Assembly (NCBI GenBank): GCA_001599355.1
Contig: BCGQ01000007.1
Coordinates: 686,620-750,619, forward strand
Reading direction: 5' to 3'
Length of the DNA: 64,000 nucleotides
Origin: Nakazawaea peltata
Lineage: Eukaryota > Ascomycota > Pichiomycetes > Alaninales > Pachysolenaceae
The notes beneath the pieces are model-generated. The model was not told the DNA's origin. It searched no databases and worked only from the letters and a program-made list of their open reading frames with translations. Shown here piece after piece: positions 1 to 64,000 of the stretch. The position numbers were made by a program, and so were the translations under genes. Position 1 is the stretch's first letter. Every line of letters begins with the position of its first letter.

Positions 1-1800
1 GTTGTTGAAGAATCTTTTGAGGAGGTTGATTTTAATAGTGTTGGGACTCGGTCGAGATCAGTTAGATATCAGACACGAAGTCAGTATCCGACCACTCGGA
101 GTCAGAAGCGGTCTGGGTCCCAGTATCCGAAGACTCGCAGTCAAAAGCCATCTCCGAGTCAATACCCGGAGTCACAGAGTCAATATCTGGAATCACGGAG
201 TCAAATCCAGAGCGCACAGAGTCAATATCCCCAGTCACAGAGTCAATTCCGTAAACAGAGTCAATTTTTAACCCCATCTCAAAAACTCAGAATCAAGAGA
301 AAAGAACTCTCTCTGAATTTAGATCTTTCCCTCAAAGAACCTACCGACTATGATGACGATCAACTCCCCGATGGGTTCATTGTCTTCAACGTCCCATTGT
401 CCAAGTCCTTGACTGCGTTATCTCATAAAGAACAACTCCCATTGTCAAATCTCAACTCGATTCCTGGAGTTTACCTGCATTCCCAACCTCCTTCGGTCTT
501 CAACAGTGCCGAGTCAAACAGATCCTCGGTCTTCAGTAATCTGAGCAGATCCACAGTCTCATCTGTATTCACAGACGACACTTTGGACCTGAAATTCTAC
601 ACCATCGAACTCAATAAAAGCATGGAAATGATGCAGACCGAGGAAAGCCAGCAGCGACTTTATCATTTGAAGAAACTAGCCAACCAACGTAACTCATGCC
701 GGGAATCGGTGTACTCAAATCTGTCCCAAACTTCGATAGTGAGCGAGACAACCTCTCTGCAAATCTCCAATACTCGTCCAAGTCATTTACCTCCAAAAGA
801 TAAATACGAAAGTTTGAAACATTCTCAAGATTATGAGACCATTCTCAGTAACCTGATGAAACTGGAGATTGAGAAATGCAATACCCATACTTCGTCGGTG
901 AAGAAACTGGAGAAACAACAGGACTTGGATTTGAAACTGTGGAGATCCATTCTGAACGATCAAACTAAATTGAAAGAACTGTTATCTAGAACTTCAACTC
1001 GTGAATTATGGTGGAGAGGAATCCCATCCGAGTTACGTCCGATGATTTGGTGTGATCAAATCGGTAATAAATTGAAGATCCGTCCAGATTTCGTGTCTTC
1101 GTCGGCCGAAAATCTCATCAAATCACTCTCAGAGTCCGATAAAACTCATCTTCGACAAATGATCAGAACTCATTGCTTCCCCAACTTGAATATAGCCCAG
1201 ATGAACGAACCTCTGATCATGCAAATCGTCTCGGCATTCATGAAATTCCACAACGTGTCCTCATCCCAATTGGAAATTGGCCTCTTCACTCTCACTCTGG
1301 TCTTATTACACAACATCAAATCCATAGACAAGTCATTCATTGCATTGTGTAATATCTTACATCGGAAATTACCGTACCAATTGAGAAGCGGACAAGTTGA
1401 TGAGGAGCTTTCGGCCCAATTGCTCTCGTTTGATCGGATTTTCAAGCGGAAAATCGATAGAATCGCAACTCATTTCCAAATTTACAACGTCAAATCACAA
1501 GAATTCCTCACAGAGATGTGCTCGTATTGTATGACTTCATATTTGGATCTCTCAAAGGCTTCAAGAGTCATAGATATCTACCTTTTTGAAGGAGATTCGT
1601 TCTTACTTCGTTGTGTCCTTGGGTTCATCCAAAAGATCGATTACAAGTTGTTTGGTAGTAAAGAAGAGATCATGAGAACTCTTGGACAGGATTGTCTTGT
1701 TCATTTGAATTGTAGACCGTCTAAAGAGGGGTTTAAATATTTTGATCTTGGGTTGGATGGTGATTTTTTTAAGACAGTTCGTGACATCTTACGGGACTAG
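1..1800 (+). CDS. TBC (Rab-GAP) domain protein, 5' truncated by the window edge
   Basis: The frame is open from base 1 to the TAG at 1798-1800, so the start codon lies outside the window; no ATG near 397 is needed. The first ~90 codons are a low-complexity region of repeated Ser-Gln-Tyr-Pro-like units (SQYP, SQSQ, TRSQ), followed by the acidic stretch DYDDDQLPDGF. The C-terminal half carries the TBC hallmark LWWRGIPSELRPMIW (about 1003-1050), a basic RTHCFP element resembling the arginine-finger motif, and the later helical segments. TBC proteins usually accelerate GTP hydrolysis by Rab GTPases in membrane traffic. The usual YxQG glutamine-finger motif is not obvious (SSQLEIG lies where it might be), so activity is uncertain. 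I cannot assign a specific GYP/MSB orthologue. Confidence 0.8.
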   Translation, partial: VVEESFEEVDFNSVGTRSRSVRYQTRSQYPTTRSQKRSGSQYPKTRSQKPSPSQYPESQSQYLESRSQIQSAQSQYPQSQSQFRKQSQFLTPSQKLRIKRKELSLNLDLSLKEPTDYDDDQLPDGFIVFNVPLSKSLTALSHKEQLPLSNLNSIPGVYLHSQPPSVFNSAESNRSSVFSNLSRSTVSSVFTDDTLDLKFYTIELNKSMEMMQTEESQQRLYHLKKLANQRNSCRESVYSNLSQTSIVSETTSLQISNTRPSHLPPKDKYESLKHSQDYETILSNLMKLEIEKCNTHTSSVKKLEKQQDLDLKLWRSILNDQTKLKELLSRTSTRELWWRGIPSELRPMIWCDQIGNKLKIRPDFVSSSAENLIKSLSESDKTHLRQMIRTHCFPNLNIAQMNEPLIMQIVSAFMKFHNVSSSQLEIGLFTLTLVLLHNIKSIDKSFIALCNILHRKLPYQLRSGQVDEELSAQLLSFDRIFKRKIDRIATHFQIYNVKSQEFLTEMCSYCMTSYLDLSKASRVIDIYLFEGDSFLLRCVLGFIQKIDYKLFGSKEEIMRTLGQDCLVHLNCRPSKEGFKYFDLGLDGDFFKTVRDILRD

Positions 1801-1814
1801 CTCATTAGTTCATT

Positions 1815-1885
1815 AGCTGACCACCTTGGCAGCTGACCACCTTGGAGCTCACCACCTTGGAGCTCACCACCTTGGAGCTCACCAT
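1815..1885. repeat. 15-bp tandem repeat, about 4-5 copies
   Basis: Units of the form AGCTCACCACCTTGG (first copies AGCTGACCACCTTGG) sit directly after the stop codon of the TBC gene, in the short gap between two convergent genes. This is a small minisatellite in a 3' untranslated region. Confidence 0.8.
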
Positions 1886-1967
1886 TTACGATTACATACT
1901 TATGTTTACTTCTTCTGATAGACTTCCGTCTAATACAATTACTTATACATTACTGGTCGAAGTCCTC

Positions 1968-4923: not shown

Positions 4924-4924
4924 A

Positions 4925-5251
4925 ATGCCACCAAAGATTCAACAATCTAAAGCTGCTAAGGCTGCCGCCGCCATGGCCGGTGGTAAGAAGTCCAAGAAGA
5001 AGTGGTCCAAGGGTAAGGTTAAGGACAAGGCTAACCACGTTGTTGTTCTTGACCAAGAGAAATACGACAGAATCTTCAAGGAAGTTCAAACCTACAAGTT
5101 TGTTTCCGTCTCTGTTTTGATTGATAGATTAAAGGTTGGTGGTTCCATCGCCAGAGTTGCTTTGAGACATTTGGAGAGAGAGGGTGTCATCAAGCCAATC
5201 TTGAAGCACTCCAAGCAACTGATTTACACCAGAGCTACTGCTGCTGAGTAA
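4925..5251 (+). CDS. RPS25: 40S ribosomal protein eS25
   Basis: This 108-residue protein begins [17 protein letters not shown], exactly as yeast eS25, with the lysine-rich [11 protein letters not shown] segment and the winged-helix core ending [12 protein letters not shown]. An in-frame upstream ATG at 4859 exists but lies inside the predicted intron, so the start at 4925 is preferred. Codon 99 is CTG (5219-5221); S. cerevisiae has Ala there, which supports CUG-Ala decoding. It is a small-subunit component near the head of the 40S, likely co-regulated with RPP0 in this window. Confidence 0.96.
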
Positions 5252-5852: not shown

Positions 5853-5960
5853 CGAAAGTGTAATTTAATGATTAAAACAAATGATGTAACTTTATAAGCT
5901 GAGGATGTATATGCAGGACTAAAAAAAAGTTAGGAATTCTTCGTTTATGAATTACTTTCG
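5853..5960 (+). ncRNA. SNR57: Box C/D snoRNA, snR57-like (18S rRNA 2'-O-methylation guide)
   Basis: A terminal stem forms between CGAAAGTGTAATT (5853-5865) and AATTACTTTCG (5950-5960), with a two-base bulge. Box C is ATGATTA (5868-5874) or ATGATGT (5881-5887), and a degenerate box D ATGA lies at 5947-5950. The guide TAGGAATTCTTCGTT (5931-5945) can pair with the 18S segment AACGAGGAAUUCCUA over 15 bp (one G-U). The fifth base upstream of box D faces the G that I believe is Gm1572, the snR57 target. The weak boxes make the exact ends less certain than for the next two snoRNAs. Confidence 0.72.
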
Positions 5961-8044: not shown

Positions 8045-9172
8045 TTAGACGTCGAAAATCACAACCTTACCGTCATTACCCGAAGAGGAAAAAGAGGTGA
8101 CTCCCGAACCTTGGACATTGTAAGCTCTTAACTTAGTGATGGCATTTTGATGAATTGTCTTGACGGATTTTTCACTTGATTTGACACCTTTCAAATCCAT
8201 TTGTTTGAACATATTTAAAGCGTCTCTTTGATTCATTTCATCTTCTTCCTCTGGAGTGATCATCTTCAGTGGCATCAGTTTAGAAGATGAACGAGGATCA
8301 TCAATGGCAGAAGTAGACAGCCAACCTGATTGAGGATTACCTTCAAAGACAACAGGATGGAAATCATGACCAGCTGCGATCAATTTCGAATCATTGACAA
8401 ACAAAATAGAATTGAAAGTCAAATAAGAAGTCTTGACTTCATAAAAGGCATCAGGTTGAGAAATCTCTCCACTACTTGATGGGTATACAATACCAATTGT
8501 AGAATTGTTAGCATACAGTAAGAAAGAAGCATCGGTTGGAGAGAATTTAACGTCATGAACCCATCCTCCATATTGGAAAAAGTCAAGACATAAAGTTTGG
8601 AAAGGAAGTCTTTCACCCCAAGCCGAAGGAGCTGGTTTCTCATCGACCAGTTTAATGAAACTACTGAAAACCCTGACATGACCATCGGTTGATCCAGACA
8701 GTAATAAGACGTTATTTGGATGCCAGTCCAATGATAAGATAGTGGACTTGATCGGCTTCTTAATATGCTTAGAAACCCACCAATCATTCTCTTCTTCGAA
8801 ATAACAAACAGCAATGATTCTGTCGGCAGATCCAACTGCAAATTTCAATCCATTTGGTGACCAACGAGCAATAGTGGCGGCTCTATTGATTCTCAATAAA
8901 ACTAATGAAGGTTTATAACTACCATCAACAACAGTATAAACGATCAGATTTCTATCTTCGGAACAAGTCAAGATCTTCCCGTCAGCACTGATATCAACAG
9001 CAGTGACTGTCTTGTCATGATCAGCCAAAAGAGTCACCAATTTAGGAACACCCGTTGAAACGTCATAAATCTCAACGGTGTTGTCCTTAGAGATGGCTAA
9101 GGTGCGACGATCATAAGAAAAACAGTGGTCATAAATCGGTTCTTTGGTCAATTGGAATGGTAATGGTGCCAT
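8045..9172 (-). CDS. ARC40: Arp2/3 complex subunit 1 (ARPC1, WD40)
   Basis: At 375 residues it is close to yeast Arc40 (384). It starts MAPLPFQLTKEPIYDHCFS and consists of WD-type repeats: DHDKTVTAVDISADGKILTCS, INRAATIARWSPNGLKFAVGS and LSLDWHPNNVLLLSGSTDGH. Near the end is the family's insert with a Met/Lys-rich helix, followed by the closing repeat FSSSGNDGKVVIFDV. It would be the beta-propeller subunit of Arp2/3, nucleating branched actin at endocytic patches. The ATG at 9170-9172 is the only plausible start. Confidence 0.93.
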   Translation of the reverse strand: MAPLPFQLTKEPIYDHCFSYDRRTLAISKDNTVEIYDVSTGVPKLVTLLADHDKTVTAVDISADGKILTCSEDRNLIVYTVVDGSYKPSLVLLRINRAATIARWSPNGLKFAVGSADRIIAVCYFEEENDWWVSKHIKKPIKSTILSLDWHPNNVLLLSGSTDGHVRVFSSFIKLVDEKPAPSAWGERLPFQTLCLDFFQYGGWVHDVKFSPTDASFLLYANNSTIGIVYPSSSGEISQPDAFYEVKTSYLTFNSILFVNDSKLIAAGHDFHPVVFEGNPQSGWLSTSAIDDPRSSSKLMPLKMITPEEEDEMNQRDALNMFKQMDLKGVKSSEKSVKTIHQNAITKLRAYNVQGSGVTSFSSSGNDGKVVIFDV

Positions 9173-9532: not shown

Positions 9533-10984
9533 ATGTCTGATAACGATAAATATGCCACCCCATTGTCTTCAAGATACGCCTCTGATGAGATGAGTGCTAT
9601 CTTCTCCTTGAGGAACAGATTCTCCACCTGGAGAAAATTATGGTTAACTTTGGCTAAGGCTGAGAGAGAAGTTGGGTTGGATAATGTGATTACCGATGAG
9701 CTGATCGCCGAGATGGAGGCTCATTTGACTATCACTGATGAAGAGATCGAGGACCTGAAGAAAGAAGAGGCCATTGTCAGACATGATGTCATGCTGCACG
9801 TTCATACTTTCGGTAAGACTTGTCCTTCAGCTGCTGGTATTATTCATTTGGGTGCCACTTCTTGTTACGTCACTGACAACGCTGATTTGATCTTCTTAAG
9901 AGATCTGTACGACGTTTTGATTCCAAAGTTGGTCAACGTCATCAACAGATTGAGTAAATTCGCTTTGGAATACAAAGATTTACCTGTCTTGGGTTGGACC
10001 CATCTTCAACCTCTGCAATTGACCACTGTTGGTAAGAGAGCCACTTTATGGATCCAAGAATTGTTGTGGGACTTGAGAAATATCGAAAGAGCTCGTAACG
10101 ATTTGGGTTTGAGAGGTGTCAAGGGTACTACCGGTACTCAACTGTCCTTCTTGTCTTTATTCCATGGTGATCATGACAAAGTCGAGCTGTTGGATGAGAA
10201 GGTTGTCGAGTTATTAGGTTTCAAGTTTGCTTACCCATGTACTGGTCAAACTTACTCAAGAAAGATCGATATCGATTGTTTGGGTCCATTACTGTCCTTG
10301 GGTGCTACTGCTCATAAGATGTGTACTGATATCAGATTGTTGGCCAATTTGAAGGAGATTGAAGAGCCATTTGAAAAGAGTCAAATCGGTTCTAGTGCTA
10401 TGGCTTATAAGAGAAACCCAATGAGATCTGAAAGAGTTTGTTCTTTGGCCAGACATCTCGGATCTTTATATCAAGATCTGTTCCAGACTGCTTCTGTACA
10501 ATGGTTCGAGAGAACTTTGGATGACAGTGCCATCAGAAGAATCTCTTTACCATCTCTGTTCTTGACTGCTGATATCTTATTATCTACTTTGTTGAACATT
10601 TCTTCTGGTTTAGTTGTTTATCCAAAGGTTATTGAAAGAAGAATTCGTTCTGAGTTGCCATTCATGGCCACCGAGAACATCATTATGGCCATGGTTGAGA
10701 AGGGTGCTTCCAGACAAGATGTTCATGAAGAAATTAGAGTTCTTTCTCATCAACTGGCTGCCGTAGTTAAGGAAGAAGGTGGTGATAATGATCTTATTGA
10801 GAGAGTCAAGAAGACCGAATTCTTCAAACCAATCTGGAATGATTTAGATGCCTTGTTAGAGCCATCTACTTTCGTAGGAAGAGCTCCACAACAAGCTGAA
10901 AAGTTTGTAAATAAGACTGTTAAGGAACTGTTAGCTCCATTTGCCCATTTGTTGAACGAAGAGGAGGTTAAATTGAGTGTTTGA
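9533..10984 (+). CDS. ADE13: Adenylosuccinate lyase
   Basis: This is a 483-residue enzyme (yeast 482) of the fumarase/aspartase superfamily. It cleaves SAICAR and adenylosuccinate, releasing fumarate, in purine synthesis. The signature [14 protein letters not shown] (about residues 285-300) and the conserved [18 protein letters not shown] and GTTGTQ segments are present. The frame is open upstream, but the first ATG (9533, AAAGATGTC context) gives the family length. It has twelve in-frame CTG codons, and at least eight sit at residues that are Ala in yeast or human ADSL (codons 88, 125, 161, 204, 254, 316, 342, 408). It is the best internal evidence for CUG-Ala. Confidence 0.97.
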
Positions 10985-18921: not shown

Positions 18922-20994
18922 ATGTCTAGAAGAGTCCATTCACCTGAAAGACGCAGCTCATGTTTACCATTTGCTCGTTTCTTCTCCCCAAATAAGAAAA
19001 GACAAATTGGAACTGGCACTGTTAAGCACCATGACGAGGGTCAACTGGAAAGATTTGACCATTACTTAGAGGACTATGATGATGAAGATTTGGATTATGA
19101 AGAAGATTATGATGATGAGAAGACTTTAAAAGGTGTCCCTATGTCATCCAAAGATTCTTCAATGTATGCTAAGTTCGATTCTAGTAGTAGATTGAAACTG
19201 TTGAGGAAATTGATGGTTGAGCATGAGATTGGTGTCTATATTATCCCCTCTGAGGATGAACACCAAAGTGAATATACTGCTACCAAAGACCATAGAAGAC
19301 AGTATATCTCTGGATTCACCGGATCGGCTGGTATTGCCGTTGTTAGTGTCAATAATCTGGACACTTTGTCTGGAGAAGCTCTGTTATCAACTGATGGTCG
19401 TTATTATTTACAAGCTGAACAACAATTGGATTCTAATTGGCAATTATTGAAACAGACAGTTCCTTCTAACCCAACTTGGCAACAATGGGCTATTATGAAA
19501 CTGAAAGCTAGTTCTTTCAGTAGTACTATCTCTATAGATCCTAAATTGGTCAACAATAAGAATGTCCAATGGATCAAGGAGCAATGTAAGGGAGGTCTTA
19601 AGTTCATTCCATTGTTTGAAAACTTGATAGATGTGATCTGGGATCATAATGGTGAGAGACCACTGTGGAATAACCTGCCTATCTACGAGTTACCATTGAA
19701 ATTCAGTGGTGTATCGCTGAATGACAAAATTCAAAATTGTAGGGATATCCTCAAGACCGAAGGTTGTGATGTATTGGTGGTTTCTGCTTTAGATGATATT
19801 GCTTGGCTTTTGAATCTTCGTGGAGATGACGTTATTTTCAATCCTGTCTTCTTCCTGTATGTGATTTTGACAATGGAGTCGGTATTTTTCTTCGTTGACC
19901 CAACTAAAGTAGATGAAGAAACTACGAAATATTTAACTACGGTCAAAGGTTTAATCAGAAAACCATACACTCAATTTTGGACTGATTTAGAGACTTTCAA
20001 ATCCAGTAAAATCATGGGTCCAGGTAACCCTTCTTTAGCTTTAGCAGAGATTGCCAAACCTGTTATCTCCAGATCTATCATCTCCGAATTGAAAAGTTAT
20101 AAAAACGAGGTTGAAATCTCCGGCCAAAAATCACTGCAATTTAAAGATAGTATTGCTTTAGCCCGTTACTTCTCATGGTTAGAATATCAATTGATCGTCA
20201 AAAGTGCCCAATTAACCGAATGGGAACTGCTGGAAAAAAATGAGTACTACAGAACTTTACTCCCCCACTACAAAAGTTTATCATTTGACACCATCTCCAG
20301 TAGTGGAGCAAACGGAGCCATTATCCACTACGCCCCCACCCCTGAAAAAAGTGACATCATCGACCCTGCTAAAGTCTACCTTTGTGACTCCGGTGCGCAG
20401 TACTTAGACGGCACTACAGACATCACAAGAACTATGCATTTCATGAAACCCACCGCAGAACAGATCCGCAACTACACCCTAGTTTTAAAGGGACACCTAC
20501 TGTTAAATATGGAAGTTTTCCTTGAAGGAACTACTGGCGCGCAGTTGGATATCCTCTGCAGAACTCCATTGTGGAAGTACGGCTTGAATTATAACCATGG
20601 TACAGGACATGGGATCGGTAGTTTTTTGAACGTCCACGAGCCTCCTATTTACATCGGGGCCAACGTCGAAGTCAAGCCTGACTGTTTCATCTCGAACGAA
20701 CCTGGGTACTACAAAGATGGTGAATACGGTTTGAGAATCGAGTCGGATATTCTTTGTGTGGAGGTCAAAGATAAGCCGAAATTCAATGAGAAAAAGTTCT
20801 GCGCATTCGAGTACTGCACTAAAGTTCCTTTCTGCCATAAATTGATCGATCCCTCGTTGCTTACTGAGGAGGAGATTCTGTGGGTGAATAATTTTAATTA
20901 TAAGCTCCGTGAGGAATTGATCCCTGTTTTAGATAAGGAATTCGGCGATATTAGGCTGGTAAGATGGCTTCTTAGAGAAACTCAACCTTTATAA
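18922..20994 (+). CDS. FRA1: M24B metallopeptidase, Fra1-like (Xaa-Pro aminopeptidase family)
   Basis: The 690-residue protein has a basic/Ser N-terminus, an acidic stretch of Asp/Glu/Tyr (about residues 45-72), creatinase-type N-terminal domains, and a pita-bread peptidase domain. The dinuclear metal ligands appear intact: DSGAQYLDGTTDITRT (two Asp), NHGTGHGIGSFLNVHEPP (His), SNEPGYY and GLRIESD (two Glu). In S. cerevisiae, Fra1 works with Fra2 and Grx3/4 to signal iron status to Aft1. Its role in a yeast that may use GATA repressors instead is open. The length is somewhat below yeast Fra1 (749). The start is the first ATG. Confidence 0.85.
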   Translation: MSRRVHSPERRSSCLPFARFFSPNKKRQIGTGTVKHHDEGQLERFDHYLEDYDDEDLDYEEDYDDEKTLKGVPMSSKDSSMYAKFDSSSRLKLLRKLMVEHEIGVYIIPSEDEHQSEYTATKDHRRQYISGFTGSAGIAVVSVNNLDTLSGEALLSTDGRYYLQAEQQLDSNWQLLKQTVPSNPTWQQWAIMKLKASSFSSTISIDPKLVNNKNVQWIKEQCKGGLKFIPLFENLIDVIWDHNGERPLWNNLPIYELPLKFSGVSLNDKIQNCRDILKTEGCDVLVVSALDDIAWLLNLRGDDVIFNPVFFLYVILTMESVFFFVDPTKVDEETTKYLTTVKGLIRKPYTQFWTDLETFKSSKIMGPGNPSLALAEIAKPVISRSIISELKSYKNEVEISGQKSLQFKDSIALARYFSWLEYQLIVKSAQLTEWELLEKNEYYRTLLPHYKSLSFDTISSSGANGAIIHYAPTPEKSDIIDPAKVYLCDSGAQYLDGTTDITRTMHFMKPTAEQIRNYTLVLKGHLLLNMEVFLEGTTGAQLDILCRTPLWKYGLNYNHGTGHGIGSFLNVHEPPIYIGANVEVKPDCFISNEPGYYKDGEYGLRIESDILCVEVKDKPKFNEKKFCAFEYCTKVPFCHKLIDPSLLTEEEILWVNNFNYKLREELIPVLDKEFGDIRLVRWLLRETQPL

Positions 20995-21126: not shown

Positions 21127-22284
21127 TTAAGCCGTACTCTTGGCTACTTTTCTATGTTTTAACTTCTCCTCGGTTCCATAGACTCTGTCATCGCTGTCAC
21201 CTTCCAGTTCTCTTCTGATAACCTCCATCTTCTTTACCTGAGTATTCCAAACGTTTTTATCGTTTTTCAGTTTCAGGTCGAATAATTCTTGATCTGGCTT
21301 TCTGTAAGATCCACCTAATCTGTCCCATAAAGTGGTGAATTGACCATAATTATAGTTGAAATACAAATGGTGGATAGTATGACAAGCAGCTCCATTGACT
21401 ACCGGATCATTACTCAAATATTCACCGTCATGAATCATAACGGTCCAGAAGTTGACAAATGTGAATAATAACAAGTACGAAATCTTGTGTAATGGGAAAA
21501 TGAATGGGAACCAATGGTATGGTAACGATTGCAGATATCCGTCAACTGGGTGGAACAGATGTGAAGCAAATGGAGTGCACACAATCCACTTATGATGAGG
21601 TTTGTGTAACAGTTTGTATACAGAAGGCCAGTGTAACCATCTGTGAATAAAGTAAATACCACAATCTGTGAACATGATGAACATTGGTAATTGCCAGAAT
21701 ACCAGCTTCCAACCCCCAGTAGATTCATTGATTCCTAAATATAATTTCGAATATCCCTTTAATTCGGCAAGGAACCATGGGATAGTCAACAAAACCATGA
21801 CTGGAATCAGAGTAGTCAGTTGATGGATTTCTAAAGACATTTGATTCTTCAAATATCTTGGGTGGTTGAACATAGACTTGTCAAAGACAAAGTAATAACT
21901 GAAAGAGGCAACACTGAAATATAAAGCCCATCCAAAAATGGTCATAATAAAGAATAATGAGATCAGTTGTCTCAACATATTACTTCTTGGTAATAAAGAA
22001 GCATAAGTATAAGCCGATTCCGGGAAGAAAATAGGTGGGGAAATACCATAGAGATGTCTAGGCTCAACTTTATCCGTATTCTCAAAGATCTTAGCCATGA
22101 CTCCCTCGTATGATAAAGTCTCCAGCAACAGCTGGTTCTCCACGGCAAACGGACTCGAAGAGTTGCAATTATGGAAATAACGTCTCAAGTTCAAAGGTAA
22201 ATTGTTACCCAAACTGCTTGGGACCAAGGTCGCAAACACTTGGTCAAACAAGTACGTGTCAGCTGCTTCAAGAACTAAATCCAT
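21127..22284 (-). CDS. ERG3: Sterol C-5 desaturase
   Basis: The 385-residue membrane enzyme introduces the C5-C6 double bond in ergosterol synthesis in the ER. The three histidine boxes that bind the di-iron centre are present: HRWLHW, HKPHH (with HHKW) and HTIHH, the last in the family context [15 protein letters not shown]. Four to five hydrophobic segments flank them. The Lys-rich C-terminus ([12 protein letters not shown]) could serve in ER retention. The length matches fungal Erg3 (365-386). The start is the ATG at 22282-22284. Three sterol-response motifs lie upstream. Confidence 0.96.
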
Positions 22285-28215: not shown

Positions 28216-28289
28216 GGTCTTGTAGTGTAGTGGTTCATCACGTCTCGTTTACACCGAGAAGATCGTGGGTTCGAACCCCACCTGGGCCT
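28216..28289 (+). tRNA. tRNA-Val (anticodon TAC)
   Basis: A cloverleaf can be drawn. Acceptor GGTCTTG pairs with CTGGGCC (one U-U mismatch, two G-U). The D arm holds the A box TAGTGTAGTGG. The anticodon stem TCTCG/CGAGA frames loop TTTACAC with anticodon TAC at 28250-28252. The T arm GTGGG-TTCGAAC-CCCAC holds the B box GGTTCGAACCC. There is no intron. The discriminator would be U rather than the usual A, and the acceptor stem is weak, so it may be divergent or partly decayed. The D-arm sequence closely resembles eukaryotic Val tRNAs. Confidence 0.85.
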
Positions 28290-31430: not shown

Positions 31431-32465
31431 TCATAACTTCAGACCACCATTGACAAAGTTGAAGCCTTGAGTGATACTGGATTTTAAACCTTTGATGGCG
31501 ACTTGGATCATCTCCTTTTCCTCTGTAGAAGTGTTACCGAATACGTCAATTGCCTTGACTGCATGACCTCCAGGGCCAATTTCGACTGGGACTGCAAAAT
31601 ATTCAACCCCAAATTTAGAAGCAAGCTGTTTACCACCTGGAATACCTGGTAAATAGACATATGCTGCGTCTGGGTAAACACCAGAGCTTCTTCTTTTCTT
31701 TCCGGACAATGAGTCAATGATCAATTCGGCAAATCTATAACCAGCAAAAGCCATACTCAAGGTGGCTGAACCTTTACCTGCTTTCAGTTTGACCACCTCA
31801 TCACCACCGAATTGCACTCTATGGATGAACTCTTTTATTTGTTGAGGAGATACTTTGGTCTTGACTTTTTCAGAAATCAGCAGATCTAAATTGACAAAAG
31901 GTACAATAGTATCACCTGAGTGTCCTCCAATGACAGAAATTTTACCTCTAAGGTCTCTCTCTCCAATTAATTCACCTAAAAAGGTCTCTGCTCTTACAGA
32001 GTCCAATGTTGTAACTCCATATAACTTTGTAGGATCGAAGACTCCTTGCCTCTTCATTTCTTCGGCAGCAATTACAACTGTAGCATTAACTGGGTTAGAA
32101 ATAATCAATAAAGCAGCCTTAGGACAGAATTCTGCAACTCCACTCACCAAAGATCTGACAATACCAGCATTGATTTTGAATAAATCAGCTCTAGTCATAC
32201 CTGGTTTTCTTGGGATACCCAGAGGAATAATGACAATATCGGCCCCAGAAAATGCCAGCTTCATACCACTTCTGTCCTCTTTATCAGCAGGTTGGAATCC
32301 CTTCACAACAGCAGGTGAGTTAATGTGGGATAAATCAGTAGCAACTCCAGGTGCATTCACAATGTCATATAATCTCAATTCAGTGACATCAGGATTCAAC
32401 TTGCATAACAAACTTAAACTCTGCCCAATACCTCCGGCAGCTCCAGCAATAGCGACTTTAACCAT
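31431..32465 (-). CDS. Malate dehydrogenase without mitochondrial leader
   Basis: The 344-residue protein starts [20 protein letters not shown], so the NAD-binding glycine motif is at the very N-terminus and no transit peptide exists. The substrate loop IPRKPGMTR, the SNPVNATV segment and the catalytic histidine in [11 protein letters not shown] are present. It interconverts malate and oxaloacetate in the cytosol (Mdh2-like) or peroxisome (Mdh3-like). The C-terminus GGLKL ends in a tripeptide that resembles but does not fit the strict SKL-type peroxisomal signal, so location is uncertain. An ~20-residue insert ([20 protein letters not shown]) is usual in fungal forms. Confidence 0.94.
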
Positions 32466-37835: not shown

Positions 37836-40800
37836 ATGAAGGCTTCTTTCAGAACTCTTGAGCGCGAGGAGCGGTTCAAGAACCCTCCTAAAGATAAGAA
37901 GGAGTTGTATCCGGAGTTAGTGGATGCAGTCTCTCCTCACATCGGATCATTCAATGCTTTAACTGAAGGTCCAGGTGGAGGATTATTGAACTTGGGTGTC
38001 AAAGATATCGGGTCAATTACCGTTTTTGACACCAACAATGATACCCTGTTGGGTAACAAGTTGAGTATCAGAGTCGATTCTGTACAATTGCTGAAGCCAT
38101 CGGTACCTAATACCGATAAGTTGTCCATCAACAGAAGAACTTACCCAGCCGAATGTAGAGAAAGAATGGTTACTTATAGATCCAAGTTCATGTTGAAAGT
38201 TGTATGGAATGTGAACAATGGTGAGGAAATCAGTGAGGTCAGAGATGCAGGTCAAGTTCCTATCATGGTCAAATCTAACAGATGTCATTTGGAGAATTTG
38301 TCTCCCGCCGAATTAGTTCAACTGAGAGAAGAATCCGACGAATTAGGTGGTTATTTCATCGTTAATGGTATCGAGAAGTTGATCCGTATGTTGATTGTTC
38401 AAAGAAGAAACCATCCAATGCTGATTATCCGTCCTTCCTTCGCCAACAGAGGTGCCTCATATACAAAATTCGGTATCCAAATCAGATCCGTAAGGCCTGA
38501 TCAAACCTCTCAAACTAACGTCTTACATTATCTTAACGATGGTAATGTGACATTCAGATTCAGTTGGAGAAAAAACGAATATTTGGTTCCTGTCATGATG
38601 GTGCTCAAACTGTTAGTAGAAACCAGTGATAGAGAAATCTTTGATGGTATCGTAGGCGCCGAAACCACCAACTCGTTCTTGACCGATCGTTTGGAATTGA
38701 TGTTAAGAACTTACAAGAGTTACAACTTGTACTCTCAGCAAGAAACTTTGGCATATTTGGGTGACAAATTCAGAGTCGTTTTCAACGCCTCTCCGGACGT
38801 CTCCGATATCGATGTCGGTAAAGAAGTGTTGAGAAGAATCGTCTTAGTCCACTTACCCAACAACGAAGACAAGTTCAGAATGTTATTGTTCATGATCAGA
38901 AAATTATACGCGTTAGTCGCCGGAGATTGCGCGCCGGATAATCCCGATGCATCACAACACCAAGAAGTCTTAGTCGGTGGATTCCTTTACGGTATGATCT
39001 TAAAGGAGAAGGTGGAGGAATATTTACAAAGTATTCGTTTACAAATTCAATCTGATATCAACCGTGGGGTCGCCGTTAACTTCAATGATAGAAAGTATAT
39101 GAGTAGGGTCTTTATGAGGATCAACGAAAACATCGGTCAGAAGTTACAATACTTCTTAAGTACTGGTAACTTGGTATCTCAATCCGGGTTGGATTTACAA
39201 CAAGTTTCCGGTTATACCGTTGTTGCCGAGAAGATCAATTTCCACAGATTCATTTCCCATTTCCGAATGGTTCACAGAGGTTCTTTCTTCGCTCAGTTGA
39301 AAACTACCACTGTTCGTAAATTGCTCCCAGAATCGTGGGGTTTCTTATGTCCTGTCCATACACCGGATGGATCTCCGTGTGGTTTATTGAACCATTTACT
39401 GTTCAAATGTAAAATTGCTACTAGTGAGTCTGATGTCTCCAAGGTTCCTGAGGCTTTAAGATTATTGGGTGTTTCTTCTGCCCAACTGTTCGCTGCTGGT
39501 CCTAAAGTATGCTGTGTTCAATTAGACGGTAAGGTTGTAGGATGGTGTTCTCATGAACAAGGTAAGATCATTGCTGATACTTTGAGATATTGGAAAGTTG
39601 AAGGAACTCATGGTTTACCTTTAGATTTGGAAATTGGTTACGTTCCTCCTTCCACTAAAGGTCAATATCCTGGTTTGTACATCTTTGGAGGTTATTCTAG
39701 AATGATGAGACCTGTTAAATACTTGCCTTTAGGCAAAGAGGATATCGTTGGTCCATTCGAACAAGTATATATGAATGTTGCTGTCACTCCTGAAGAGATT
39801 GAGAACAATGTACATACTCATGTCGAGTTTGCTCCAACTAATATGTTATCCATCTTGGCTAACTTGACTCCATTCTCCGACTTCAACCAATCTCCAAGAA
39901 ATATGTACCAATGTCAGATGGGTAAGCAAACTATGGGTACTCCGGGTGTTGCTTTGGTTCATAGATCTGATAACAAATTGTATCAATTACAAACTGGTCA
40001 GACTCCAATTGTTAAGGCCAATTTGTATGACAATTTCGGTATGGACAACTTCCCTAACGGCACTAATGCCGTCGTTGCCGTTATCTCTTATACTGGTTAC
40101 GATATGGATGATGCGATGATCATCAACAAATCTGCCGATGAAAGAGGTTTCGGTTATGGTACAGTTTTGAAGGTTGAGAAGGTCGACTTGAGTAATGGAA
40201 GAAGAAGAGGTGATCCAATCACTCAACATTTCGGTTTTGGACAAGATGAATGGCCAGAGCAATGGAAAGACAAATTGGATGACGATGGGTTACCTATTAT
40301 TGGTGTAAAGGTCGAGGAAGGTGATCCAATTGTTGCTTATTATGATGAGACTATTGGTAAGACCAAGGTTAAGACTTACCACTCTTCTGAACCAGCTTAT
40401 ATCGATGAGGTCAAATTACTTGGAGATGATAATGGAGACCAAGAATTCCAAAGTTTGACCATCAAATATAGAATTACCAGACAGCCTCAAATTGGTGATA
40501 AATTCTCTTCCAGACACGGACAGAAAGGTGTTTGTTCTAGAAAATGGCCAGCTATTGATTTACCATTCAGTGAGACTGGTATTCAACCAGATGTCATCAT
40601 TAACCCTCATGCTTTCCCATCTCGTATGACCATTGGTATGTTTGTCGAGTCTCTTGCCGGTAAAGCTGGTGCCTTACATGGTATTCTGCAAGATGCCACT
40701 CCATGGAAGTTCAGTGAGTCTGATACTCCTCTGGACTTCTTTGGTGAACAATTGAAACTGGCCGGTTACAATTACCACGGTAATGAACCAATGTATTCTG

Positions 40801-41339
40801 GTGCTACTGGTGAAGAATTAAGAGCCGATATTTATATTGGTGTCGTTTACTATCAAAGATTGAGACATATGGTTAACGATAAGTTCCAAGTCAGATCTAC
40901 TGGTCCAGTCAACTCCTTAACCATGCAACCTGTTAAGGGACGTAAGCGTTCTGGTGGTATTCGTGTGGGAGAAATGGAGAGAGATGCATTAATTGGTCAT
41001 GGTACTTCTTATTTGTTACAGGACAGATTATTGAACTGTTCTGATTACACTCAAACATCGGTATGTAAGAGTTGTGGTTCCTTATTGACTACTCAATCAT
41101 CTGTCCCAAGAATTGGAACTGCTTCCACTGTTCGTTGTCGTCGTTGTGCCGTCAAAGTTGACCCACTGGTATCCCATTCTAACGTTGATGAGCTGGATAT
41201 TTGGGAGGACGGTCAAGGTAATAAATTCATTGGAGGTCATGATACTACTACTGTTGCCGTGCCTTTCGTCTTGAAATACTTGGATTCTGAATTGAATGCC
41301 ATGGGTATTAAGATGACCTATAATGTTGTTCCTAAATAA
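37836..41339 (+). CDS. RPA135: RNA polymerase I second-largest subunit
   Basis: The 1167-residue protein aligns from end to end with yeast Rpa135: FRTLERE at the N-terminus, GGYFIVNGIEKLIRMLIVQRRNHPM, the wall and lobe regions, GYDMDDAMIINKSADERGFGYG, the hybrid-binding IGDKFSSRHGQKGVCS, and the C-terminal zinc-binding cysteines (CKSCG, CRRC). The frame is open 19 codons upstream but without ATG, so the ATG at 37836 (GTCAAGATGA) is the start. At least six CTG codons fall on residues that are Ala in yeast (86, 196, 259, 522, 951, 966). It makes the pre-rRNA in the nucleolus. Confidence 0.98.
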   Translation: MKASFRTLEREERFKNPPKDKKELYPELVDAVSPHIGSFNALTEGPGGGLLNLGVKDIGSITVFDTNNDTLLGNKLSIRVDSVQLLKPSVPNTDKLSINRRTYPAECRERMVTYRSKFMLKVVWNVNNGEEISEVRDAGQVPIMVKSNRCHLENLSPAELVQLREESDELGGYFIVNGIEKLIRMLIVQRRNHPMLIIRPSFANRGASYTKFGIQIRSVRPDQTSQTNVLHYLNDGNVTFRFSWRKNEYLVPVMMVLKLLVETSDREIFDGIVGAETTNSFLTDRLELMLRTYKSYNLYSQQETLAYLGDKFRVVFNASPDVSDIDVGKEVLRRIVLVHLPNNEDKFRMLLFMIRKLYALVAGDCAPDNPDASQHQEVLVGGFLYGMILKEKVEEYLQSIRLQIQSDINRGVAVNFNDRKYMSRVFMRINENIGQKLQYFLSTGNLVSQSGLDLQQVSGYTVVAEKINFHRFISHFRMVHRGSFFAQLKTTTVRKLLPESWGFLCPVHTPDGSPCGLLNHLLFKCKIATSESDVSKVPEALRLLGVSSAQLFAAGPKVCCVQLDGKVVGWCSHEQGKIIADTLRYWKVEGTHGLPLDLEIGYVPPSTKGQYPGLYIFGGYSRMMRPVKYLPLGKEDIVGPFEQVYMNVAVTPEEIENNVHTHVEFAPTNMLSILANLTPFSDFNQSPRNMYQCQMGKQTMGTPGVALVHRSDNKLYQLQTGQTPIVKANLYDNFGMDNFPNGTNAVVAVISYTGYDMDDAMIINKSADERGFGYGTVLKVEKVDLSNGRRRGDPITQHFGFGQDEWPEQWKDKLDDDGLPIIGVKVEEGDPIVAYYDETIGKTKVKTYHSSEPAYIDEVKLLGDDNGDQEFQSLTIKYRITRQPQIGDKFSSRHGQKGVCSRKWPAIDLPFSETGIQPDVIINPHAFPSRMTIGMFVESLAGKAGALHGILQDATPWKFSESDTPLDFFGEQLKLAGYNYHGNEPMYSGATGEELRADIYIGVVYYQRLRHMVNDKFQVRSTGPVNSLTMQPVKGRKRSGGIRVGEMERDALIGHGTSYLLQDRLLNCSDYTQTSVCKSCGSLLTTQSSVPRIGTASTVRCRRCAVKVDPLVSHSNVDELDIWEDGQGNKFIGGHDTTTVAVPFVLKYLDSELNAMGIKMTYNVVPK

Positions 41340-41524: not shown

Positions 41525-42407
41525 ATGGCGAATTCACGGTAAGTTTTGTATTGCAGATGGTAGAAATTATGATGGTAAAGTACTAACTAAGAGTCACAGA
41601 TTCGAATATGTCAAAAATTTCGAAAGAGAAAACTATTTATTACCTGATACTTTCATAGTGATAAGAATAGATGGAAGAGGATTTCATAAGTTCAGTGATG
41701 CATATTCATTTGAGAAGCCAAATGATATGAGCGCATTGGAATTGATGAACCAATGCGCTCATAAGATCATGGAAGATGTCCCAGATGTAATAATGCTGTA
41801 TGGAGATAGCGATGAATATTCATTTTTACTAAGGAGGAACTGTGATGTGTTTGAGAGGAGAGAACTGAAGTTGATCACTATGTTTAGTTCATCGTTCACG
41901 ACTTATTATCAATTTTATTGGCGAGACTATTTCCCAGATAAACCTTTACAACCGAACAGATTACCCCAATTTGATCTGAGACTGGTCATGTATCCTACAG
42001 TTCAAAATGTTAGAGATTATTTCAGTTGGAGACAAGTCGATTGTCATATAAATAATTTGTACAACACAACTTTTTGGAGTTTAGTACAATTGGGTAAAAT
42101 GACACCTCAAGAACTGGAAAATAAATTAATGGGTACTCTCCTGAAAGATAAAAATGAGATTTTGTTCAGTGAATTTGGAATCAACTACAACAATGAACCT
42201 GAAATGTTCAAGAAGGGAACCTTAATAGTACGAGAATCAGATGAAGGAGTTTTGATTGGAGATTCCACGCTGGATAATTCCTCGGTGAAAAATACCCTCA
42301 GCAGAAAACAACTACAAAAAATCACAAAAACCTTAAGAAAAGCCAATTTAACTCACTACCACAAAGATATAGTCAACAACGATGAGTTTTGGCAGCAATT
42401 ACATTGA
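41525..42407 (+). CDS. THG1: tRNA-His guanylyltransferase, spliced
   Basis: Exon 1 (41525-41538) encodes MANS plus two bases. A 61-nt intron (41539-41599: GTAAGT, TACTAAC at 41581-41587, CACAG) splits codon 5, and exon 2 runs 41600-42407. The 273-residue product starts MANSRFEYVKNFE, matching yeast MANSKFGYVRQFE. It carries the metal-binding RIDGRGFHKFS and the GDSDEYSF and FSEFGINYNNEPEMFKKG motifs. It adds the essential G-1 to tRNA-His. The codon before YGDSDEYSF is CTG (41796-41798), Ala in yeast and human. It lies 185 bp after RPA135. Confidence 0.96.
41539..41599 (+). other. 61-nt THG1 intron
   Basis: Donor GTAAGT (41539-41544), branch TACTAAC (41581-41587), acceptor CACAG ending 41599. 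Splicing restores the conserved N-terminus, which gives strong support. Confidence 0.93.
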
Positions 42408-44604: not shown

Positions 44605-46353
44605 ATGAGTTCCAGTAAAAGAGATTTGGAGGCATCTAACAAGAAGCTGAAATCTGGTAACGCTGCTTTCCATGATTTTGTGAATGATTTTGCCGATGTT
44701 GAAGATCCTTTAGAAAGAAGAAGATTAGCCCTTGAAAAAATCGATAATGCAAAGTTCGGTTGGTACCATGTTAGAGCCATCTGTGTTGGTGGTGTTGGTT
44801 TCTTGACCGATGCTTATGATATTTTTGCTATCAACTTGGCTGTCACCATGTTGAAGTTTGTTTTCTGGGAAGGTTCTATGCCAGCTTCTACTGAGACTCT
44901 TTTGAAAGTATCTACTTCCGTTGGTACTGTTATTGGTCAATTAGGTTTCGGAAGATTAGCTGATGCAGTTGGTCGTCATAGAATTTATGGTTCCGAATTA
45001 ATCATTATGATTGTCGCCACTATTTTCCAAGTCACCTTGGGTCAAGCTCCGCTGATTAACTTTGCTGCTATCTTGACCTTCTGGAGAATTTTCATGGGTA
45101 TTGGTATTGGTGCTGACTACCCAACATCATCTGTCATCACTTCTGAATTTGCAACCACTAAGCACAGAGGTCTGATCATCGGTTCTGTCTTTGCTAACCA
45201 AGGTTGGGGTCAGTTATTAGCTGGTATTGTCTCTGTCATCATCGTTAGAGCTTACAAGAGTGATTTGATCGTAGCTGCTAATGCTTCTGAATGTACTGGT
45301 GATTGTTTAAAGGCTGTCGATGAAATGTGGAGAATTTTAGTTGGTTTCGGTGCCGTCCCAGCCGTTTGTGCTTTGTACTTCAGATTAACTATTCCTCCTT
45401 CTCCAAGATATCAATTGACTAATTTGGAGGCCGAAGCTGAAGTCGAATCTGACAGTGAACAAAATACCAAGAAACAACAACCAACAGGTACCGAAGTTAC
45501 CACTGTCGATGCTCTGTCTGTTGCTGAATCTGAACCAGAAGAAAATCCAAACGGTACTTTCAGAGAATTCTGTCTGCATTTCAGTCAATGGAAACATTTA
45601 AGAATTTTGATCGGTACTGCCGGTTGTTGGTTTGCCTTGGATGTTGCTTTCTACGGTCTTGGATTGAATACCTCTGTCATTTTAGAAGCCATTGGATTTG
45701 CTAGTGACGAAAATGTCTACGACAAATTATACAATGTATGTGCTGGTAATTTGATTTTAATTTGTGCCGGTTCCATCCCAGGTTACTGGTTCAGTGTCTT
45801 CACTGTTGATATCCTCGGAAGAAAATTCATCACCATCATGGGTTTCACCATCTTGACCATCTTATTCTGTGTCATTGGTTTCGCTTACCATAAGCTTTCT
45901 CAAAATGCTTTATTAGCTTTATATGTATTATCTCAATTCTTTGAGAATTTCGGTCCAAATGCCACCACTTATATCATTGCTCTGGAATGTTTCCCATCCA
46001 AATTTAGATCTACTGCTCATGGTATTTCTGCTGCTAGTGGTAAAGTTGGTGCTATTGTTGCCCAAACAGCTTTGGGTACCCTTGTTAACCATGGATGTTC
46101 CGCTGATAACCAGAACTGTTTCTTACCTCATGTCATGGAGATCTTTGCCTTATTCATGCTGTTGGGTATCGGTTTAGGTTTCCTCTTACCAGAGACTAAG
46201 AGACAGACTTTAGAAGATTTAGCTGAGAGATTACATGGAGAGATTAATCCTAGTAGAATTGCTCTGGAGAGAAATGCCAACAACAACAATATCCCTCTCA
46301 GTGACATCAGTCAGACCGAGTCTGCTACTAAGACTAGCTCTATTGAAGCTTAG
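44605..46353 (+). CDS. PHO84: High-affinity phosphate:H+ symporter
   Basis: The 582-residue MFS protein (yeast 587) has 12 membrane segments. Hallmarks are GFLTDAYDIFAINL (helix 1), GRLADAVGRHRIYG (loop 2-3), the PHS signature region GIGIGADYPTSSVITSEFATTKHRG, a central hydrophilic loop and WFALDVAFYGLGLN (helix 7). CTG codons 150, 190 and 460 align with Ala in relatives. It imports phosphate at the plasma membrane and probably also signals. A Glu/Ser-rich loop (about 275-315) is suited to regulation. The start is the first ATG. Confidence 0.96.
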   Translation: MSSSKRDLEASNKKLKSGNAAFHDFVNDFADVEDPLERRRLALEKIDNAKFGWYHVRAICVGGVGFLTDAYDIFAINLAVTMLKFVFWEGSMPASTETLLKVSTSVGTVIGQLGFGRLADAVGRHRIYGSELIIMIVATIFQVTLGQAPLINFAAILTFWRIFMGIGIGADYPTSSVITSEFATTKHRGLIIGSVFANQGWGQLLAGIVSVIIVRAYKSDLIVAANASECTGDCLKAVDEMWRILVGFGAVPAVCALYFRLTIPPSPRYQLTNLEAEAEVESDSEQNTKKQQPTGTEVTTVDALSVAESEPEENPNGTFREFCLHFSQWKHLRILIGTAGCWFALDVAFYGLGLNTSVILEAIGFASDENVYDKLYNVCAGNLILICAGSIPGYWFSVFTVDILGRKFITIMGFTILTILFCVIGFAYHKLSQNALLALYVLSQFFENFGPNATTYIIALECFPSKFRSTAHGISAASGKVGAIVAQTALGTLVNHGCSADNQNCFLPHVMEIFALFMLLGIGLGFLLPETKRQTLEDLAERLHGEINPSRIALERNANNNNIPLSDISQTESATKTSSIEA

Positions 46354-46667: not shown

Positions 46668-47600
46668 TTAGTCGAACAAACCGAAGCCCATGTCGGCATC
46701 GGATTCATCCTCTTCCTCAGCAACAGCCTCTTCAGCTGGAGCAGCATCATCGGCAGCAGCAGCGACTGGAGCAGCAGCAGCATAAGCTTCTGGGTTGGCC
46801 AATCTGTCCTTGATGGCTTCAGAACCCTCGAAGGTGTAGTCAGTGGCAATAGACAAAGCCAAAACATTCTTATAGTTGTTGATAAGAGTGTGACCAACAG
46901 ATGGCAAGGTTGGGTAACCGATAGCCAAAGAGATGGAGGCAATGGTGTTGACAGCAGAGACGAAGTGAGAAATCAACTCGTCGTCGGTGATATCCAAAAT
47001 AGAGGATGGGAAGACTTGTCCGTTGTCGTAAACTTGGACAACAGTCATACCGTAGGTGAATGGAGAGATGTTCAACAAGTTCAACAAGGAAGCTTCAGAA
47101 GCACCAACCTTTCCACCGGCTTCAACAACCTTAACGTCGTTGGTAATTTCAATGGTACCTCTGGCAATCTTGGTTGGAACACCCAAAGCTTGGAAGAAAG
47201 AGGTTTTACCTGGCTCCATACCGGTGTTACCGGCTGGGACCCAAACGTCGGCTGGAGCCAAAGCACCGGCTCTGGCTGGAGCAGCGACTCTGTTAGCAAC
47301 AACAGTGTCTCTGATGGTCTTCAAGTCACCGTTGGTGAAGATGAAACCAACGTTACCTCTAACGTATGGCAACAACTTCTCAAACTCTGGCAACTCAGCC
47401 AAGAAACCTCTGATGGCTCTTCTGACCATGGTGTTCTTACCCATCAAAACGACGGCCTCACCTCTCAAAGCCTTTCTGATTTCGTGCATTTGTTGGGAAG
47501 AGACATTGTCAACACCAACAACGAAGATAGACTTGTAGTCTTCCAACAATTGTCTTAACTTGGAGAAGTATTCAACTTTCTTTTCACGAGCGCCTCCCAT
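46668..47600 (-). CDS. RPP0: 60S ribosomal stalk protein P0 (uL10)
   Basis: The 310-residue protein starts [20 protein letters not shown] and matches yeast P0 throughout ([58 protein letters not shown]). The Ala-rich hinge and the acidic [12 protein letters not shown] tail, which contacts elongation factors, are present. It anchors P1/P2 on the GTPase-associated centre. The highly expressed gene appears to contain no in-frame CTG, as expected for a reassigned codon. The ATG is at 47598-47600. Confidence 0.98.
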
Positions 47601-57406: not shown

Positions 57407-57445
<39 letters not shown>

Positions 57446-62307: not shown

Positions 62308-63160
62308 TGTTAAATATTAATGACTTTCTCATCTTCTTCATTTGAGAGGGGAAGTCAACGTTATTTATATCATTAGAGATTCTATTATATTCCAATATAT
62401 TCCAATGCCATGTAATTTAATCATATACTTAAAACTGATGAATTATTTTAATCCAAAAATAACCCCCCAACAAAACTGGTCCTGGTCCATACTTGGTTAG
62501 TTGGGGTTCATTTGATAATTCAACTTCTTTCGTATAATCCTCCCAAACCACCCCAACAAACTAGTCTAAATCTAAGTTTCAGTTCAGTTGGCATTCATAT
62601 AAAGCTCAATGATATTCATCCCTCTTCTATCATCTTCCATAATCCTCCACAATAAAACCCCCAACAAAATTTCCATCTTCGCTCACCAAAAAAAGGGGGC
62701 GTTTTCGCTTAAGCAAAAAGATTAAGAAAGAGATCGATGATGACTAATGAGTAAAGCATTTGAGTGACATAGAAGAAAATCGTGTAAGTGAATGAAGGTA
62801 GTCTTCACCTTGGAGTACGCCTCAAATAGTCTGTAGCCTGGACTGAGAATCGGAGGAGGAGGGGAGTAGGAATGTATGATTATAGATGCTACCTAATTCT
62901 TATAGGGTAGGTATGCAGGACCTTAATCACCCCCTAAAACTAAACGTTTATGCAAGACTAAGGAACTAACTACAGCTAACCGGGAATATGGATGGGACAA
63001 ATTAAAAGAATTTCATTCTTATATACAGTGAGTTATCTAGGTGATAGTACAACAATATATAAATAACTTTATAACACAAATTGGCTACCATAGCCCCTCC
63101 TCACCACCCCATCCCCTTACCATAAGAATAGGTATATAATTATTTGTTGAAAATAAGAAC
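62308..63160. promoter_or_regulatory. SDR copy 1 promoter with three CCCCAACAAA motifs
   Basis: CCCCAACAAA (TTTGTTGGGG on the gene's sense strand) occurs at 62465-62474, 62551-62560 and 62659-62668. The first forms a bulged inverted repeat with GTTGGGGTT about 40 bases on. No reading frame or RNA is supported in the rest; the last ~150 bases are the 3' flank of copy 2. Confidence 0.45.
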
Positions 63161-63910
63161 TCAGAAAGGCAGCTCGGTTCCATCATAAACGAGGAACTTA
63201 CCTGTTTCAGTCAGAGCATCAATAACCTTCAATTGCAGTTTAGCACTTTCTTCTGGACTAATAATTGGCGGACCACCTTCTGGGGCTTCACTTGAACCGG
63301 ATGCCAAAAATTGGAACACCAGTCTGGCCAGATCAGTGTCAACAACACCGGGATGAATAACACAGACGATAGTATCAGGTTCTTCTGTTGCAATTTCTTT
63401 CAGAATATAGTTCAAATACAGTTTGGAAGCACCGTACAGTGAAGATTTGACAGTGAGTTTATCAAATACAGTGATAGAACCAAGCATTGAGGTGACGAAG
63501 AATAACTTGTTAACAGTTTTCCATAACTCTTCCTTCTTTTTAATCGCTTGGTAAAACATCAAAGGACCCAAACTGTTGATATTGAAATGATCTGAAAACT
63601 CAGAGAGTGGAACCTTATCAACTTCTTGGTATACTTCAGGTCTGCAAATTCCAGCATTGAAAATGATAGTATCAACCCTTTTCACAGTGGAAGCCAATTC
63701 AGAAACAAAACTTGATGTACTATCTTGATCACCTACCAAATATTTGAGGATCTTAATGTTACCTCTTTCTTGCAGTAAATCGCTTAAGGTTGGTGAATCA
63801 TTTTTGAGAGTAGCAATAACAGTGGTATCTTTCCGGGAGGTAAGCTCCTTAACGAGAGCGAGGCCAATACCTCTGCTCGCACCAATAACTAAGTAAGTGG
63901 AATTAGACAT
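63161..63910 (-). CDS. Short-chain dehydrogenase/reductase, copy 2
   Basis: The 249-residue paralogue of the 61.6-kb gene is about 70% identical by eye. It has the same IGASRGIG, FNAGICRP, Ser in SMLGSITVF, YGASK and IHPGVVDTD motifs. The main difference is an insertion of about eight residues (SGSSEAPEG region) before the C-terminal helix. Both copies look intact and under constraint, so they may differ in substrate or regulation. The ATG is at 63908-63910; only 90 bases of its promoter are inside the window. Confidence 0.88.
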   Translation of the reverse strand: MSNSTYLVIGASRGIGLALVKELTSRKDTTVIATLKNDSPTLSDLLQERGNIKILKYLVGDQDSTSSFVSELASTVKRVDTIIFNAGICRPEVYQEVDKVPLSEFSDHFNINSLGPLMFYQAIKKKEELWKTVNKLFFVTSMLGSITVFDKLTVKSSLYGASKLYLNYILKEIATEEPDTIVCVIHPGVVDTDLARLVFQFLASGSSEAPEGGPPIISPEESAKLQLKVIDALTETGKFLVYDGTELPF

Positions 63911-64000
63911 TGAATAAAAAGAATTTTGATTTAGATCGTTGATCGTGTTTTGGTAGATTTCAAAATCTACTTTACAAGCAGATCAATGGAGAGTATATAT

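Follow-up and report, generated by a model that had tools for sequence, protein, structure and literature searches.

The closest described system for the DNA discussed here is the nuclear CUG-Ala code, which has been described for the yeasts Pachysolen, Nakazawaea and Peterozyma (PMC5951914), is also covered in PMC8645108, and is available as NCBI table 26. NCBI taxonomy assigns all three genera to Pachysolenaceae, Alaninales. In a computational screen of 462 yeast species, the meaning of CUG fitted the known distribution in 453 (PMC8629427). Clades with a reassigned codon are reported to use CUG relatively rarely and off conserved sites (PMC5951914), and PMC11540330 speaks of CTG avoidance for Serinales and Ascoideales. 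The window analysed here, i.e., a whole stretch of 64,000 nucleotides (G000:C7:686620-750619) from a genome that was searched over 11.6 Mb in 11 contigs, almost certainly is chromosomal DNA from a budding yeast of Alaninales (the Pachysolen/Nakazawaea/Peterozyma group) in which nuclear CUG is read as alanine. This had been proposed in an initial annotation of the window, based on CTG codons falling on conserved alanines, and the code had rightly been treated there as already described: it is correct and already known as CUG-Ala, NCBI table 26.

Since the initial annotation had picked individual sites, scoring was extended to each CTG codon in three conserved genes:

ADE13, adenylosuccinate lyase: 9533..10984, forward strand, 12 CTG codons (9701, 9755, 9794, 9905, 10013, 10142, 10187, 10292, 10478, 10556, 10754, 10928).
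RPA135, RNA polymerase I second-largest subunit: 37836..41339, forward strand, 12 CTG codons.
ERG3-type C-5 sterol desaturase: 21127..22284, reverse strand, 12 CTG codons, a gene not cited in the initial annotation.

The earlier citation had indeed been selective. All 18 cited CTG codons (ADE13 7, RPA135 6, THG1 1, PHO84 3, RPS25 1) lie in frame where they had been placed, out of totals of 12 CTG codons in ADE13, 12 in RPA135, 8 in PHO84 and 7 in THG1. For the unselected scoring, the best 120 homologues listed per gene (of 7999 for ADE13, 2653 for RPA135 and 1830 for ERG3) were used, which had been collected with X at CTG in the ADE13 query and leucine at CTG in the RPA135 and ERG3 queries, the latter biasing the search against alanine. 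The alignments were made to queries whose CTG codons were masked, and homologues more than 97% identical were then thinned, leaving 68, 73 and 117 sequences for ADE13, RPA135 and ERG3, respectively. Columns less than 70% occupied were skipped, at the cost of none of the 36 CTG sites, and all codons of the three genes were scored against the column profiles in natural-log units.

Over the 36 CTG sites, alanine reaches +50.3, followed by serine (-17.5), threonine (-36.9), valine (-42.3) and leucine (-44.0). Hence, the comparison of alanine, leucine and serine, which had been suggested as a check on the proposed code, comes out for alanine by a wide margin. The same test recovered the standard meaning for 47 of 47 control codons with at least five sites, including TTA, TTG and CTT as leucine. 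CTC (four sites) was likewise scored as leucine, and AGC, with two sites below the five-site control tally, was scored as lysine. Under the standard code, CUG would be leucine and the alanine sites would reflect coincidence or alignment effects; with leucine 94.3 units below alanine in a test that returns TTA, TTG, CTT and CTC as leucine, this explanation is virtually impossible. What speaks for it is that leucine is the commonest residue at one of the 36 sites, together with isolated leucine matches in the aminopeptidase and malate dehydrogenase considered below. The codon-class comparison speaks against it, as does the absence of a tRNA-Leu(CAG) from the 16-gene census given further on: leucine is commonest at 1/36 CTG sites vs 157/172 TTA/TTG sites (Fisher p ~1e-26) and at 12/14 CTT/CTC sites, CTA having no occurrences. 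Due to these codon controls, coincidence is ruled out.

In the same codon-class control with thinned homologues, alanine is the commonest residue at 23/36 CTG and 71/97 GCN sites, which is no difference (p = 0.29); the other CTG sites are headed by lysine and serine (three each) and by leucine, glutamate, arginine, histidine, threonine, tyrosine and phenylalanine (one each). Alanine columns of at least 90% identity, 67 in the three genes, hold GCT 26, GCC 20, CTG 16, GCA 3, GCG 1 and TGT 1, and CTG occurs at none of the 137 leucine columns and none of the 60 serine columns of the same conservation. As far as protein conservation is concerned, CUG is used like a GCN codon. Gene by gene, alanine is commonest at 11 of 12 CTG sites in ADE13 (best 120 homologues, thinned), with a weighted alanine share of at least 0.96 at eight of them (codons 57, 75, 88, 125, 161, 342, 408 and 466). 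In RPA135 it is commonest at six of 12 (codons 86, 196, 259, 522, 951 and 966), leucine at none, and in ERG3 likewise at six of 12, codon 360 standing on leucine/valine and codon 337 on lysine/arginine. All 13 sites cited earlier for ADE13 and RPA135 are among the 23 at which alanine is commonest. The accompanying statement that leucine or serine would break such sites is too strong for serine at some of them, as serine is found in 20/68 homologues at ADE13 codon 254 and in 18/73 at RPA135 codon 522.

A tRNA(CAG) with the alanine identity element G3:U70 had been predicted to lie elsewhere in the genome, and such a gene was found. A pattern of U33-CAG plus B box gave 51 genome hits, 50 of which were cut as loci and scanned with ARAGORN, the last one sitting in tRNA-Leu(AAG), which was scanned as well. 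Pattern and ARAGORN together yield a single tRNA gene whose anticodon is CAG, at G000:C4:81426-81498 and thus outside the window; a sequence search of the genome with E up to 10 gave no second copy. ARAGORN labels the gene as Leu, its score against the Rfam tRNA model is 50.9 bits, and a T run follows immediately downstream. Its variable loop has five bases (class I). The acceptor stem carries G3:U70 and A73, both in common with two tRNA-Ala, and G3:U70 is confined to tRNA(CAG) and these two tRNA-Ala among 28 class I sequences compared, a partial set (63/608 candidates scored) that includes no His, Ile, Phe or Tyr tRNA. A 6:67 mismatch is also common to tRNA(CAG) and tRNA-Ala, and is present too in Val(UAC) and Arg(CCG). 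When the tRNA(CAG) gene was folded as a single strand, z was 0.15 and the minimum-energy fold was not a cloverleaf; evidence for the cloverleaf comes from ARAGORN and the Rfam model.

Class II tRNA genes were counted by a D-arm pattern, which gave 16 genes: Leu CAA 5, UAA 2, AAG 1 and UAG 1, and Ser AGA 3, GCU 2, UGA 1 and CGA 1. Anticodons were read from the matched strings, and one intron-bearing Leu(CAA) copy is labelled Val by ARAGORN. None of these 16 genes is a leucine or serine tRNA with CAG, a count that could miss a gene whose D arm has diverged, and the pattern GGCCGAGYGGT...CAGG matched only tRNA-Leu(AAG). Within reach of such D-arm patterns, the ancestral tRNA-Leu(CAG) would thus appear to have been lost.

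From these features we infer charging, decoding and fidelity of tRNA(CAG) as follows. The tRNA, for which the searches made here show one gene copy, would receive alanine via G3:U70, the determinant of alanyl-tRNA synthetase, with A73 as discriminator. Alanyl- and seryl-tRNA synthetase require no particular anticodon bases (PMC5951914); given the G3:U70 acceptor stem and this anticodon independence, the alanine-charged tRNA(CAG) would put alanine at CUG. As no leucine or serine tRNA with CAG was found by the D-arm patterns, it would face no known cognate competitor at this codon. Possible leaks would be wobble by tRNA-Leu(UAG) and leucyl-tRNA synthetase acting on A35, G37 and A73.

Further genes of the window were compared by eye with relatives of solved structure:

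THG1, tRNA-His guanylyltransferase: 41727..42407, forward strand, open frame from 41727 with the upstream part not delimited, 7 CTG codons including 41796.
PHO84-type phosphate transporter (name from the initial annotation): 44605..46353, forward strand, 8 CTG codons.
Malate dehydrogenase: 31431..32465, reverse strand, 6 CTG codons.
Xaa-Pro aminopeptidase: 18922..20994, forward strand, 15 CTG codons.
ARPC1-type Arp2/3 complex subunit: 8045..9172, reverse strand, 7 CTG codons.
RPS25 (eS25), C-terminal part: 5003..5251, forward strand, one CTG at 5219, codon 73 of the stretch.

Taken from longer hit lists, two alignments each were viewed for THG1, PHO84, malate dehydrogenase and the aminopeptidase, three for ARPC1 and five (of 30 hits) for RPS25. 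Solved relatives agree with alanine at conserved CTG sites and are mixed at variable sites and in fast-changing proteins. Five of the seven THG1 sites are alanine in 3wbz, none being leucine, and the one cited earlier (41796, codon 24) is alanine in both 3wbz and 3otb. The RPS25 codon at 5219, also cited earlier, faces alanine in 8ut0, 4u3m, 3j6x and 9spj and valine in 7nwg. In malate dehydrogenase, codons 82 and 227 are alanine in both 5zi2 and 4wle, codon 196 faces leucine in 5zi2 within a poorly aligned loop, and the other CTG sites match neither alanine nor leucine. For ARPC1, codons 76, 158 and 285 are alanine in 3dwl, and 76 and 158 also in 7t5q; the remaining sites face D, Y, F, T or E, W, T or a gap, with leucine at none. 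The 12 aligned CTG sites of the aminopeptidase show alanine six times, leucine once (codon 194) and other residues five times in 3ctz. The five aligned CTG sites of PHO84 face D, T, I, A and A in 7sp5; of the three that had been cited as conserved alanines, 45982 does face alanine, whereas 7sp5 does not back the claim for 45052 (Asp) and 45172 (Thr).

Ten proteins were additionally scored against Pfam under tables 26 (Ala), 1 (Leu) and 12 (Ser), with 22 families added by hand and overlaps settled in favour of the better family. The summed bits amount to 2927.8, 2857.5 and 2895.0, respectively, which gives alanine a lead of 70.3 bits over leucine and 32.8 bits over serine, and alanine scores best in seven of the ten proteins; AAA_21, an overlapping family that was not counted, prefers alanine as well. 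A CUG-Ser1 or CUG-Ser2 code, in which CUG would be serine, takes second place both here and in the profile test, and serine is ahead in the family of one protein and in the left-out MFS_1. It falls 67.8 units short of alanine in the profile test and 32.8 bits short in Pfam, and CTG is found at 0/60 conserved serine columns. Moreover, the CAG tRNA is of class I with its five-base variable loop, not class II, and CAG occurs in 0/7 tRNA-Ser genes of the census, so that serine is extremely improbable as the meaning of CUG.

Several observations weigh against a plain alanine reading. In the Pfam comparison, leucine is slightly ahead in two of ten proteins (304.0 vs 303.9 and 344.3 vs 343.3) and serine in one (83.1 vs 82.8), and of the overlapping families not counted, MFS_1 (phosphate transporter) gives serine 93.3 vs alanine 84.4, PK_Tyr_Ser-Thr gives serine 84.1 vs alanine 83.7, and PDZ prefers leucine. 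Against the more distant 4s2r, the same 12 aminopeptidase sites show alanine once, leucine three times and other residues eight times, codon 194 facing leucine in 3ctz as well as 4s2r. The tRNA(CAG) gene is missed by the Rfam fast filters at the gathering setting, and it bears A35, G37 and A73, which PMC8629427 names as yeast leucine identity elements. One tRNA-Leu(UAG) gene, in principle able to read CUG through wobble, was found in the 16-gene census. Finally, columns nearly without alanine account for 3/36 CTG vs 1/97 GCN sites (p = 0.06), namely RPA135 71 (Arg/Tyr), ERG3 337 (Lys) and ERG3 360 (Leu/Val), which faintly suggests that some sites are other than plain alanine positions.

The leucine identity elements, the tRNA-Leu(UAG) gene and the columns nearly without alanine are what could be expected if CUG were mainly alanine with a few per cent leucine, supplied by wobble of tRNA-Leu(UAG) or by mischarging of tRNA(CAG) through leucyl-tRNA synthetase. 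For Pachysolen, PMC8645108 mentions a value of 10% leucine from a single de novo peptide analysis and calls it mistaken, against more than 99% alanine reported elsewhere. Such ambiguity is unlikely here: CTG stands on 16 columns of at least 90% alanine, where leucine would be costly, and on 0/137 conserved leucine columns, and the single tRNA-Leu(UAG) gene found (G000:C4 ~804518-804725) has an intron of 120 bases as predicted by ARAGORN. The largest canonical tRNA introns known, of 134-318 nt, belong to tRNA-Leu(CAG) of other yeasts (PMC5951914).

Alanine as the meaning of CUG also agrees with the phylogenetic place of the window, which the initial annotation had assigned correctly to the Pachysolen clade. 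In a tree of ADE13, RPA135 and ERG3 (13 rows, 2032 columns, window CTGs masked), the window joins a metagenome pair with support 100/98 and then Pachysolen tannophilus with 100/99. Next to this group stand Komagataella, Kuraishia, Ogataea, C. boidinii and C. arabinofermentans at 80/87 (not starred), which puts the window, with Pachysolen, beside the Leu2 clade. Identity to the P. tannophilus orthologues is 85.5, 85.9 and 74.9% for ADE13, RPA135 and ERG3, respectively. The metagenome ADE13 (P0001) has leucine at columns 342, 408 and 466, which are alanine in 118 or 119 of 120 homologues, and the metagenome ERG3 (P0241) has leucine at column 156, which is alanine in nearly all homologues. Both appear to come from a public CUG-Ala relative that was translated with the wrong (standard) code.

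CUG is a common codon in this genome. Codon counts, for which 29 of 35 open frames were used and six overlapping frames left out, give 237 CUG among 14,294 codons of the window, i.e., 21% of alanine codons, and stop-to-stop frames at other loci (79 open stretches) give the rough figure of 710 in 35,000, or 28% of alanine codons. The notion of CUG being excluded from conserved sites was considered and found unsupported, as CTG makes up 16/66 alanine-coded conserved vs 20/67 variable columns in the three genes. With thinned homologues, sites of at least 90% alanine are 13/36 for CTG vs 47/97 for GCN, leaning toward CUG off conserved sites. One further gene of the window bears on usage:

P0-type ribosomal protein gene: 46668..47600, reverse strand, 41 alanine codons (GCT 27, GCC 14, GCA 0, GCG 0, CTG 0).

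Its product, which we take to be an acidic ribosomal protein P0 homologue, thus has CTG at 0/41 alanine codons vs 12/47 in ADE13, an observation on one gene noticed after the fact. Genes with high expression may avoid CUG. Elsewhere in the window, Rfam reports three consecutive C/D box small nucleolar RNAs (snR57, snR55 and snR61) at 5862-6312.

The origin of the tRNA(CAG) body was addressed by comparison with other tRNA genes, including the only one reported in the window:

tRNA-Val(UAC): 28216..28288, forward strand.

For tRNA(CAG) in CUG-Ala yeasts, the stated origin is an anticodon change of a tRNA-Ala (PMC5951914). The present gene is equally close to Ala(AGC) and Val(UAC), with an identity of 50/71 in each case; grouping it with Ala is not rejected (p-AU 0.404), and the best tree puts tRNA(CAG) with Val(UAC) at support 38/79. 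Its D arm fits a pattern found elsewhere only in four tRNA-Gln genes. Seen as a whole, tRNA(CAG) has an alanine-like acceptor stem and a D arm of the GTGTAGNGGTTATCAC type, as in tRNA-Gln and near tRNA-Val(UAC), the tRNA-Ala arm being GCGTAGTTGGTAGCGC. At 28216-28289, tRNA-Val(UAC) itself shows T (U) at the discriminator, U3:G70 and the 6:67 mismatch; tRNA-Val(AAC) of the same genome has A73. A tRNA-Val(CAC) is a conceivable precursor by one anticodon change, for which two patterns gave no evident match, as judged from the matched strings. We consider it a doubtful yet conceivable scenario that CUG became a mainstream alanine codon about as free as GCN at invariant sites, that tRNA(CAG) arose from a non-alanine body (nearest Val(UAC), alike in D arm and anticodon stem) by gaining G3:U70, and that the wobble rival tRNA-Leu(UAG) is throttled by its long intron.

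For practical use, all proteins of this genome need translation by table 26, and relatives translated with the wrong code already seem to be present in public protein collections (P0001, P0241). Furthermore, with CUG both common and placed at conserved alanines, the genome is an additional case to be set against the view that codons with a new meaning occur only where they matter little. The tRNA(CAG) body as well as the long tRNA-Leu(UAG) intron are testable leads on how the reassignment originated and how it stays clean.

Among known systems, the mitochondria of Ashbya read CUU and CUA as alanine (PMC3874161) and thus likewise involve leucine-box codons, whereas here the nuclear CUG is concerned. 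CUG-Ser1 (Candida clade) and CUG-Ser2 (Ascoidea, Saccharomycopsis) represent reassignments of the same codon in related yeasts (PMC5951914). They use serine tRNAs with CAG, while none was found here in the 16-gene census and serine fits worse than alanine. The correspondence is closest with the CUG-Ala code of the Ala clade defined by Krassowski et al. 2018 (PMC5951914; NCBI table 26), to which Pachysolen, Nakazawaea and Peterozyma belong and which shares CUG on conserved alanines, a tRNA(CAG) with G3:U70, no tRNA-Leu(CAG) found, and the grouping with Pachysolen. With orthologues 74.9-85.9% identical to those of Pachysolen tannophilus, the window represents a different species carrying this same code.

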